A stretch of 64,000 nucleotides of DNA, taken from contig NZ_VUNS01000016.1 in the NCBI RefSeq assembly GCF_009695545.1, positions 1 to 64,000 on the forward strand, given 5' to 3'. Source of the DNA: Victivallis lenta (GTDB taxonomy: Bacteria; Verrucomicrobiota; Lentisphaeria; Victivallales; Victivallaceae). Positions 40,917 through 44,902 of this stretch are shown here, in pieces. The notes under the pieces were generated by a model, which saw nothing but the letters and a program-made list of their open reading frames with translations, was not told where the DNA came from and did no database searches. How positions within the stretch are numbered: the first letter of the stretch is position 1; each line of letters starts with the position of its first letter. The position numbers were made by a program, and so were the translations under genes.

Positions 40917-41006
40917 TTATTTCTTCTTGTGCCGCAGCAGTTTCAGCTGCTTCTTCCGCTTGTGCTTGGCGATCTTCTTACGCCGTTTCTTTTTCAGGTT
41001 GCCCAT
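40917..41006 (-). CDS. Very small basic protein, probable ribosomal protein of the AURKAIP1/COX24 (bS22-like) family
   Basis: 29 aa, starting MGNLKKKRRKKIAKHKRKK and ending LLRHKKK; 17 of 29 residues are Lys or Arg. This matches the pattern of the tiny bS22 proteins of mycobacteria (MGSxIKKRRKRM then KKKHRKLLRR), related to mitochondrial mS38. A purine-rich AGAGAGA lies 4-5 bases upstream of the ATG. It is read in the same direction as the TPR and rlmN genes. The gene is easily missed because of its size. The assignment rests on the sequence pattern. Confidence 0.75.
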   Translation of the reverse strand: MGNLKKKRRKKIAKHKRKKQLKLLRHKKK

Positions 41007-41286: not shown

Positions 41287-42654
41287 GTGCTTTACAATCT
41301 GTTTGCGGTGTTGATTCTGCTGGGCTGGATTTTTTCCGGCGTTTACGCCCTCGATTCTATCAGCGGGAAGATCGGCGAGAATGCCCGGGGAAGGAAGTGG
41401 CTGAATCTGGCCGCCGTCTTCTTCGGGCCGTTCGTCCTGCTCGGCGTCTGGGCGTCATCCGCTTTCAGGAAGGAGGAGAGCGGCGAGGAGGGGGCGTCCG
41501 TTCCGGTCGTCGTGCGCGGCAAGGGGAAGCGCGGCGCTCCGGTCGCGCTGCTGACCGACCGCGCCGGGAATCCGGTGACGCCGCTCGACAACCGCCCGCC
41601 CGCCGTCGAGGCGATGGAGACGGTCTATCAACTTATGCAGGAGGCGGTCGAACGCAAAGCCACCCGGGTCATCGTGCAGCCCGACCTGGAAGGGGAATAT
41701 CATGTCCGGTTCCGGATCGACGGCGCGGAGGAGAACATCTCCTCTCTCGGTGCGTTGCAGGGCGGCAGTCTGGTCTCCGCCTTCAAGCACGCGGCCGGAA
41801 TGTCGACGAGCGAGCGGCGCAGCAGCCAGTCCGGCGGCTTCTTCCTGCAGACCGGCAAGGCGCCGCTCAACTGCCCGGCCCAGAGTTCGCGCTCCGGCGG
41901 CGGCGAGCAGATCGTGGTCCGGCTCGGAACGATCGAAGCGGTTCCGCCGCTGGAGGGGCTCGGCATTCCGGCCGGCGGCCTGGCCGAGCTGCGTGAGCTG
42001 CTCGGCGGCGGCAGCGGGCTGGTTCTGCTGCTCGGCCGTCCCGGCAGCGGCCTCACGACGACGATGTATTCAATCCTGCAGTCGCCGGAGCTGGCGGAGC
42101 GCCGGATCGCCTCTTTTGAAAGCCCGGTCGAATTCAAGCTCGACAATGTCATGCAGAACGAAGTCGATCCGCATCGCGGCAATACGCTGCTGAAACTGCT
42201 CGGCAATGCGATCAACGACGGCGCCGATACGCTGGCGGTCGGGAATCTGAACGATGCGGAGAGTGCGCGGCTCACCGTGAATTTCGCCCGGAACGGCAAG
42301 TTATCCGTCGCCGTGCTCGACTGCGCGACGCCGCTGGAGGCGTTCGCCCGGTTCGAGAAATGGGAGATCACGCCGCGCATGCTCGGCGGCATGCCGCTGT
42401 GCCTTCTGAGCCAGGCGCTGGCCCGGAAGACGGGGGGCGGTTATGCGGCCGTGTTCGACCTGCCTGACCGCAGCGCGCTCGACAGCGCGCTCGAAACCAA
42501 AGGCGTGACCATCGACATGGTCCGTCAGGCCATCGGCAAGGGCGGCGACGGCACCGGGCTGATGGAAGAACTCGATATCCTCGTCAACGACGGCACGATT
42601 ACACGGGATGAGGCCGCGCGGGTGGTGAAGACGATTGCGAGAAAGGGAGAATAG
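41287..42654 (+). CDS. Membrane-anchored GspE/PilB-like protein with degenerate ATPase motifs
   Basis: 455 aa from GTG 41287 (AAAGGA upstream). Two N-terminal hydrophobic helices (LYNLFAVLILLGWIFSGVYAL and LAAVFFGPFVLLGVWA) are followed by a secretion-ATPase fold: N-terminal cradle (AVERKATRVIVQPDLEGEYHVRFRIDGAEE) and RecA-like core. The Walker A reads GRPGSGLTTT (250-259): Leu256 replaces the essential Lys. The Walker B region has GNLND where active enzymes have GEIRD, and the His-box LHTN is LDCAT. Soluble T2SS/pilus ATPases lack such membrane helices. It is probably a non-hydrolysing relative with a structural or regulatory role. Confidence 0.82.
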   Translation: MLYNLFAVLILLGWIFSGVYALDSISGKIGENARGRKWLNLAAVFFGPFVLLGVWASSAFRKEESGEEGASVPVVVRGKGKRGAPVALLTDRAGNPVTPLDNRPPAVEAMETVYQLMQEAVERKATRVIVQPDLEGEYHVRFRIDGAEENISSLGALQGGSLVSAFKHAAGMSTSERRSSQSGGFFLQTGKAPLNCPAQSSRSGGGEQIVVRLGTIEAVPPLEGLGIPAGGLAELRELLGGGSGLVLLLGRPGSGLTTTMYSILQSPELAERRIASFESPVEFKLDNVMQNEVDPHRGNTLLKLLGNAINDGADTLAVGNLNDAESARLTVNFARNGKLSVAVLDCATPLEAFARFEKWEITPRMLGGMPLCLLSQALARKTGGGYAAVFDLPDRSALDSALETKGVTIDMVRQAIGKGGDGTGLMEELDILVNDGTITRDEAARVVKTIARKGE

Positions 42655-42656
42655 AA

Positions 42657-43349
42657 ATGGAACTGCTGATTTTCTGGGGAATCCCGGTCATTTGCGCGCT
42701 CATCGGCTTTCAGCGGATGTTTTACCGCATGTTCACGAAATTCATCTGTTTCACCTTCGCTGTTTATCTCGGCATGTGGAGCGAAAAGCTCGTATCGCCG
42801 ATTTTCGGCTTCCTGCCCTCCGGCGCGGAGTCGATGCAGCCGGTGGTCGCGATCTATGCGGTGGCGATTGTGGTCTGGGTTGTGCTGCTGATCGTGTTCA
42901 ACTCCCTGAATCCGCAGAATAACCACTATGCGTTTCCGCCGGCGGTCGACCGCGCGGGCGGTGCGCTGTTCGGCTTCCTGACCGGTGTCGCCGTGGTCAG
43001 CTTTCTCGGCATCGCCGCCTGCCTTACTCCGCTCAAGACGGAGCTGCCGTTCGGGCTCAGGACCGAATCGGTCGAGGCCGCTTCGGTCCGGGGCGTCATG
43101 GCGGTGACCCGCGGCGTCAATTTCTTCTCGGGGCAGTCCGGCCGCAATACGGCCTGCCGGGAACGGCTCGGGGAGCTGCTCGCCTCCGCCGACGCGGCGG
43201 CTGTGGAGCTGAAGGCGAAGCGCGCGCAGTACGAGGCGATGAAGAACGGCGAACCGCTGCCCCCGCCTCCCCCGGCGGAGGAGAAGCCCGGCATGCTCCA
43301 GAATGTGAAGGAGCAGAAGGAGCAGCGGGATCAGGAAATGAACAAGTGA
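42657..43349 (+). CDS. CvpA-like membrane protein
   Basis: 230 aa, starting 2 bp after the GspE-like gene. Four hydrophobic segments (~5-25, 30-50, 60-85, 100-122) resemble the CvpA/colicin V production family: ELLIFWGIPVICALIGFQRMF, VYLGMWSEKLVSPIFGFL, and DRAGGALFGFLTGVAVVSFLGIAACL. The C-terminal third is soluble, with a Pro-rich stretch and a charged end (KEQKEQRDQEMNK). CvpA proteins affect envelope integrity and secretion; the role here is unknown. Confidence 0.7.
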   Translation: MELLIFWGIPVICALIGFQRMFYRMFTKFICFTFAVYLGMWSEKLVSPIFGFLPSGAESMQPVVAIYAVAIVVWVVLLIVFNSLNPQNNHYAFPPAVDRAGGALFGFLTGVAVVSFLGIAACLTPLKTELPFGLRTESVEAASVRGVMAVTRGVNFFSGQSGRNTACRERLGELLASADAAAVELKAKRAQYEAMKNGEPLPPPPPAEEKPGMLQNVKEQKEQRDQEMNK

Positions 43350-44902
43350 TCCGGAAAATCACGGGTTTCCGGGTCGATTCGACGAAGGCTCCGGCCGACA
43401 TTGACGACCGGATCGGCGGCATGGCTGCGCGGGCGGAAGGCATTCCTGTCGTGCAGCTGCGGGATTTCCGCATCACAGGCAAGAGCATCGACGCCCGGCG
43501 CGGTGTTCCGGTGCTGCTCTACAACCTTGAGCTCGATGTGGACGAACAGGATTCTCCGGCTGAGTTCCATCTGCCGCTCCGCCTCGACCTGCCGGAACGG
43601 ACGGCGCTTCTGCATCCGGTCGTGGTCGGCACCGGCCCCGCCGGTATTTTCGCCGCGCTGGCGCTGGCGCTGGCCGGGGCGAAGCCGCTGATCCTCGACC
43701 GCGGGCGCCGGGTCGAGGAGCGTTATGCCGACTACCGGCGCTTTCTCGAAAGCCGCGAACTCGACGAATCGAGCAACCTGCTGCTCGGGGAAGGCGGGGC
43801 CGGTACATTTTCGGACGGCAAGCTCTATACCGGCACCCGCGACATCCGCGCCGCTTTCGTGCTGGATACGCTGGCCCGGGCGGGTGCGCCGCCGGAAATC
43901 CGCTATCTGAAGCGTCCGCACATCGGTTCGGACAAGCTGCGCGCCGTTGCCGCGAACCTGCGGAAGCGCATCATCGGGCTCGGCGGCGAATTCCGGTTCG
44001 GGACCGAGGTCACCGGCCTCCTGCTGAAAAACGGCCGCTGCATCGGCGTCGAAACCGCCGCCGGTGACCGGATCGAAGCTCCGGCGGTAATCATGGCGCC
44101 GGGTCTCGGGGGGCGGGAACTCGTGCAGCGCATGGCCCGGCAGGGAGCGGGCGCGCTCCTGAAACCGTTCCAGATCGGCTGCCGCATCGAGCATCCGCAG
44201 AGCTTCATCGACCGTGCGATGTATCATCTCGACAGCCGCCCGGCGGCGCTCGGCGCGGCCGAATACCATCTGGTTTCCCGTCCCGGGAACGGAGTGCCGG
44301 GCGTCAGCTCGTTCTGCATGTGTCCGGGCGGGGAGATCCTGAATGCGACGGCGTGGCGCGGCCACTCCGTGTCGAACGGCATGAGCGATTATGCGCGGAA
44401 CGGCGAATTTGCGAACGGCTGCCTGATTGCCACGCTGCCGGCGGAGAAATTCGGCAGTTCGGCGGAGGCGTACGAATTCCTGGCCGGATTCGAGCGCCGC
44501 ATCTTTGAATCGGGCGGGGGCGATTACGCGTTTCCTGCGCAGGATGCCGCCGCCTTTCTGTCCGGGCGGAACGGGCTTTCCCTGGCCCGGACCGGCTGTG
44601 CGACCGGCATCGTGCCGGGGCGGCTCGACCGGCTGATCCCGCCGGAGCTGGCGACGGCGCTGCGGGCCGCGCTGCGGCACTTCGACCGGGGAAATCCGGG
44701 GTTTATCCGTTACGGCAAATTCGTGGGGCTTGAGACCTGCGTGTCGAGTCCGCTGCGCTTCCACCGGGAACCGGACTCTTTGATGTCGAATCTGTCCGGA
44801 CTGTATCCGTGCGGCGAGGGAGTCGGCTGCGCCGGCGGCATCATGTCCGCCGCGGTTGACGGCCTGAAAGTGGCCGAGGCCCTGCTCCGGCAGGAGACCT
44901 GA
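43346..44902 (+). CDS. FAD/NAD(P)-dependent oxidoreductase of the COG2509 type
   Basis: 518 aa, GTG start overlapping the CvpA-like stop. An N-terminal ~90-residue domain is followed by a dinucleotide-binding motif VVVGTGPAGIFAALALALAGAKPLILDRG and GEGGAGTFSDGKLYTGTRD. The FAD domain ends with GLYPCGEGVGCAGGIMSAAVDGLKVAEAL. This is the family of uncharacterised flavoproteins often annotated as NAD(FAD)-utilising dehydrogenase. The physiological substrate is unknown. Confidence 0.9.
   Translation: MIRKITGFRVDSTKAPADIDDRIGGMAARAEGIPVVQLRDFRITGKSIDARRGVPVLLYNLELDVDEQDSPAEFHLPLRLDLPERTALLHPVVVGTGPAGIFAALALALAGAKPLILDRGRRVEERYADYRRFLESRELDESSNLLLGEGGAGTFSDGKLYTGTRDIRAAFVLDTLARAGAPPEIRYLKRPHIGSDKLRAVAANLRKRIIGLGGEFRFGTEVTGLLLKNGRCIGVETAAGDRIEAPAVIMAPGLGGRELVQRMARQGAGALLKPFQIGCRIEHPQSFIDRAMYHLDSRPAALGAAEYHLVSRPGNGVPGVSSFCMCPGGEILNATAWRGHSVSNGMSDYARNGEFANGCLIATLPAEKFGSSAEAYEFLAGFERRIFESGGGDYAFPAQDAAAFLSGRNGLSLARTGCATGIVPGRLDRLIPPELATALRAALRHFDRGNPGFIRYGKFVGLETCVSSPLRFHREPDSLMSNLSGLYPCGEGVGCAGGIMSAAVDGLKVAEALLRQET

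Follow-up and report, generated by a model that had tools for sequence, protein, structure and literature searches.

Motors of secretion systems and pili are usually treated as engines. PilB K327A of Myxococcus xanthus is ATPase-dead yet signaling-active, so that a PilB with a dead Walker A motif still works as a regulator (PMC5544727), and inactivated PilT variants retain PilU-dependent function (PMC6762196). A gene of Victivallis lenta, located in a 64,000-nucleotide stretch of contig NZ_VUNS01000016.1 (hereafter, the window), encodes a PilB/GspE relative that recalls the M. xanthus variant. PilB K327A, however, was made in the laboratory from a functional pilus motor, whereas the dead state of the window protein is natural and fixed, and the protein is predicted to be membrane-anchored. 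The open-licence papers that we searched held nothing direct on natural pseudo-ATPases of this family, on Victivallis secretion or on kinase-PilB-FHA links.

The window gene encodes a PilB/GspE-like protein with a broken ATPase site

The features of the locus are as follows.

41287..42654 (+): gene for the PilB/GspE-like pseudo-ATPase with a predicted membrane anchor; GTG start, TAG stop included
41290..41475 (+): N-terminal membrane hairpin, the family signature (conserved W14, G18 and G47-P48), from hydropathy, alignment, hairpin profile search and model
41614..41925 (+): N2 domain (approximate boundaries), present even in the motor-less version of genome G006, from alignments and model
42034..42063 (+): broken Walker A, GRPGSGLTTT; Leu256 codon CTC at 42052-42054
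42241..42255 (+): broken GEIRD motif, GNLND (residues 319-323), catalytic Glu gone
42657..43349 (+): CvpA-like multi-TM membrane protein, the constant downstream neighbor (Pfam Colicin_V, 1.1e-8)
43346..44902 (+): FAD-dependent oxidoreductase, the next gene in synteny (G001, G002, G003, G005 and G007)

The open reading frame comprises 455 codons plus the stop, and its GTG start is common to most relatives. Residues 253-259 of the protein read GSGLTTT, with Leu256 in place of the P-loop Lys; the GEIRD motif has lost its Arg along with its catalytic Glu, and DCAT occupies the position of the His box. The window protein thus lacks all three features by which we recognized an active ATPase (Walker A Lys, GEIRD catalytic Glu and His box), and each of these losses had been correctly read in the initial annotation. 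No Rfam matches were found within the window.

The proposed GspE/PilB fold was supported by several searches, which speak against a fortuitous similarity. Pfam PF00437 (T2SSE) matched the window protein at E=8.9e-29 (100.7 bits, cut-off 24.9) and phmmer matched it to the sequence of the solved PilF at 3e-28, while its scores fell far under the NCBIfam equivalog cut-offs for GspE, PilB and ComGA. An AlphaFold model built from five sequences (pLDDT 76, pTM 0.58) had PilB, PilF and GspE as its best PDB matches, with Geobacter PilB at Z 30.5 (rmsd 4.2 over 336 residues); these matches leave the N-terminal 100 residues uncovered. The window protein is thus predicted to share the N2 plus RecA-like fold of the PilB/PilF/GspE ATPases. 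Unlike them, it lacks the catalytic Lys, Glu and His and the tetracysteine zinc module, its N-terminus is a membrane hairpin rather than the usual N-terminal domain, and its gene is adjoined by a CvpA-like partner rather than by secretion or pilus genes.

The membrane hairpin defines a family restricted to Victivallales

Hydropathy places hydrophobic segments at about residues 1-19 and 39-57, and the model has helices at 3-28 and 36-63, consistent with the membrane anchoring that had been proposed and that we likewise predict. These helices had also been described as foreign to secretion ATPases. They are indeed absent from canonical PilB/GspE, but they are present throughout a family of Victivallales proteins whose ATPase sites are mostly intact. 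We defined this hairpin-PilB family in the present analysis with a profile that includes the hairpin, and found 37 members in 36 of the 137 genomes of the order (mostly metagenome bins, as are the compared genomes generally), spread over two Victivallales families. A clear gap in profile score separates them from canonical PilB/GspE, the tree sets them apart from canonical ATPases with full support, and no member outside Victivallales was found among 388 genomes of the phylum. The window protein has the arrangement of the family, namely the hairpin with its conserved Trp, Gly and Gly-Pro, then N2, then a CvpA-like gene.

Catalytic motifs are intact in 26 of the 36 aligned members, including most of those outside the window genus. 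Dead members within that genus are the window clade (the window protein and its orthologues in G002, G003 and G008) and the proteins of G007, G005 and G001. The member in G074, of genus g15, is also dead and represents a separate loss; the motifs are partly altered in G020 and G083. The window genome (G000) has an intact paralogue on contig C2, while only dead copies occur in G002, G003, G005, G007 and G008. With G001 and the motor-less G006, seven of the nine genomes of the genus have dead versions only.

Catalytic losses are shared by orthologues under purifying selection

The three orthologues are 46-58% identical to the window protein. Their Walker A motifs read GSGRTST, GSGRTST and GGGRTTT, so that no close orthologue with an intact GSGKT, which would have counted against the initial annotation, was found among them. 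The Lys is lost in all three, but the replacement is Arg and not the Leu for which a search had been suggested. Because the CTC codon of Leu256 is one base from the CGC codon for Arg in G008, residue 256 likely passed from Lys through Arg to Leu. None of the four clade members has a P-loop Lys, a GEIRD Glu, a His box or tetracysteines, the zinc module being deleted in this clade and retained in other family members. The remainder of the P-loop (G253, G255, T257 and T259) and the Asp-box Glu278 are retained in all four, and residual nucleotide binding is possible on this basis.

In the nearest pair, G002 and G003, dN/dS was 0.11, compared with 0.08-0.15 for four neighboring genes, and the hairpin was the part of the protein with the lowest dN. 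The shared losses and this ratio together rule out a sequencing error or recent decay, and they indicate that the window gene is a pseudo-ATPase gene under purifying selection rather than a decaying one, as had been proposed.

A CvpA-like membrane protein is the constant partner

The gene downstream encodes a protein with several membrane helices that resembles CvpA, the colicin V production protein (PF02674, 35.6 bits, above the cut-off of 29.3). The partners of most relatives score under this cut-off and, unlike the CvpA family, are encoded beside a PilB-like protein. The predicted model of the window partner is poor (pLDDT 45). Its gene begins 2 nt past the stop of the window gene and in turn shares 4 nt with the third gene; the window gene, intact as had been noted, is not itself part of this overlap. 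The FAD-dependent oxidoreductase is probably merely co-transcribed.

The gene following the ATPase gene was CvpA-like at 30 of the 31 loci scored. A CvpA-like profile searched down to E 1e-3 matched 36 of 137 genomes, exactly those that hold the ATPase family, each match adjoining a family member, although the profile was built from family neighbors and its matches are biased towards them; in G134, the family member beside the CvpA-like gene is cut by a contig end. These partner counts are lower bounds because the partner in G006 escaped this search.

The initial annotation had suggested a possible place for the protein in the pseudopilin-rich secretion systems of the lineage, which our results do not support. 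No secretion or pilus gene (GspC-M, GspF, secretin or pilin) was conserved within five genes of the window gene or its relatives. The only conserved partner is the CvpA-like protein, joined in some relatives by a kinase fusion or a tandem-PilT gene.

Natural variants lack the motor domain or carry a kinase

In G006, from the same genus, the protein is 229 aa long and consists of the hairpin and N2, after which it ends; the whole RecA-like ATPase domain is absent. Its stop overlaps the start of the CvpA-like gene by 4 nt, and hhalign gave 2.3e-20 and 1.2e-11, the latter for the CvpA-like partner. This genome is a single metagenome bin with 6% contamination. G001 has two dead copies. The one at C8 lacks both the hairpin and the CvpA-like neighbor and is the sole hairpin-less copy; the second, at C80, has the hairpin and a CvpA-like gene directly downstream. 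This second copy is fused to ankyrin repeats (L134:7156-10344): a Cys-rich, zinc-rich N-terminus, an Ala/Pro-rich stretch, a TM segment, the repeats and the hairpin accompany a very degenerate PilB domain (GEPGNGRRT).

In four genomes (G065, G069, G074 and G076), the hairpin-ATPase makes up the C-terminal half of a longer protein, preceded by a Pkinase domain (E 3e-39 to 4e-46). These fusions were found only in genus g15; they start with cysteine pairs (zinc-ribbon-like), have an intact Ser/Thr kinase HRD motif and resemble PknB-type Ser/Thr kinases, whereas the window protein has no kinase. Kinase and ATPase are both expected in the cytosol, but the stretch between them has three hydrophobic segments. 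One of those in the hairpin is therefore likely re-entrant, and the second, which contains the Gly-Pro kink, is the probable one. A K/R-rich loop is consistent with this arrangement.

Several g15 genomes have extra tandem-PilT paralogues after the hairpin-ATPase/CvpA-like pair. We rejected tandem PilT as a dedicated partner. Several g15 genomes do have it next to the family, but full-length or partial matches occur in 135 of the 137 Victivallales genomes searched, so the link is limited to the extra g15 paralogues. The tandem PilT-PilT protein of the window genome (736 aa, L128:6474-8684, G000:C5:141476-143683) has both P-loops intact. In the extra g15 paralogues (L081:4586-6775 and L083:2843-5068), the first PilT is degenerate (GEMNDLET and GELPDADA) and the second intact; judged by these motifs, they are another half-dead motor beside the hairpin-ATPase.

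The window protein as a probable membrane scaffold or regulator

The losses could reflect slow decay, in which a second, redundant membrane-anchored ATPase is gradually losing function. Such decay would fit the long branch at the stem of the dead clade (2.39 changes per column) and the intact paralogue on C2; however, reading frames are open in all orthologues, dN/dS is similar to that of neighboring genes, the partner gene is retained, and G002, G003 and G008 have the dead version only, hence no redundancy within the family. We regard decay as quite improbable. Unusual nucleotide use, in which the protein would bind ATP or a different ligand despite the missing P-loop Lys and so sense nucleotide, is very improbable in our assessment: although the rest of the P-loop and Glu278 persist throughout the clade, the Lys has been lost together with the Glu and Arg of GEIRD and the His of the His box, and G006 lacks the site entirely.

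The 14 T2SSE matches in the window genome raise the possibility of mixed rings, in which the dead subunit would assemble with the active PilB/GspE/PilT-type ATPase from a canonical T2SS or type IV pilus and govern how active that ATPase is or where in the membrane it sits. Retention of the PilB fold, as predicted, is in keeping with this, and PilT and PilU provide a precedent in which an active motor helps a dead one (PMC6762196). Mixed rings nevertheless seem unlikely, as no secretion or pilus genes are conserved alongside, the motor-less G006 version lacks the ring-completing domain, and the dead clade has lost 58 of the 124 positions that are invariant in the active family.

We favor, as reasonably probable, a dead, membrane-anchored PilB/GspE relative that works with the downstream CvpA-like protein, having dispensed with its motor and survived as a scaffold or regulator. 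The hairpin would anchor the protein in the inner membrane and contact the CvpA-like protein, a contact suggested by co-occurrence and gene neighborhood. The cytoplasmic N2 and dead motor domain would form a scaffold or regulatory adaptor in a nucleotide-free state, its target perhaps being the active PilB/PilT-type motors of the cell. Since it persists intact next to that CvpA-like protein despite the loss of its ATP-using residues, and in one species of the entire motor domain, the protein probably serves as a membrane scaffold or regulator and not as an engine. The Ser/Thr kinase fusion in a related genus suggests that the ancestor, its motor still active, was probably a signal-responsive ATPase; the PilB-like/CvpA membrane module is possibly signal-responsive.

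A broader proposal, which we offer tentatively as quite possible, is that hairpin-PilB and CvpA-like proteins form an undescribed inner-membrane complex of Victivallales that is neither pilus nor secretion system. In most Victivallis species point losses, and in one the disappearance of the motor domain, would have made it independent of ATP, with kinase-linked ATPase versions in relatives. The lineage holds a graded series of active, point-dead and motor-less versions of one protein, all with one membrane partner, so that what N2 and the anchor do is set apart from ATP hydrolysis. It also provides a consistent and directly testable candidate partner for CvpA, a widespread protein.

Other loci

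At L131:5678-8236 and L083:349-2819, an FHA-domain CpaF-like ATPase forms a pair with a CpaB/RcpC protein. The genes for this pair adjoin the hairpin-ATPase module in G081 and form a separate locus in the window genome. A tiny divergent ORF lies in the window at 40917-41006 (-), with the sequence MGNLKKKRRKKIAKHKRKKQLKLLRHKKK, a candidate for an AURKAIP1/COX24-type small ribosomal protein by its appearance.
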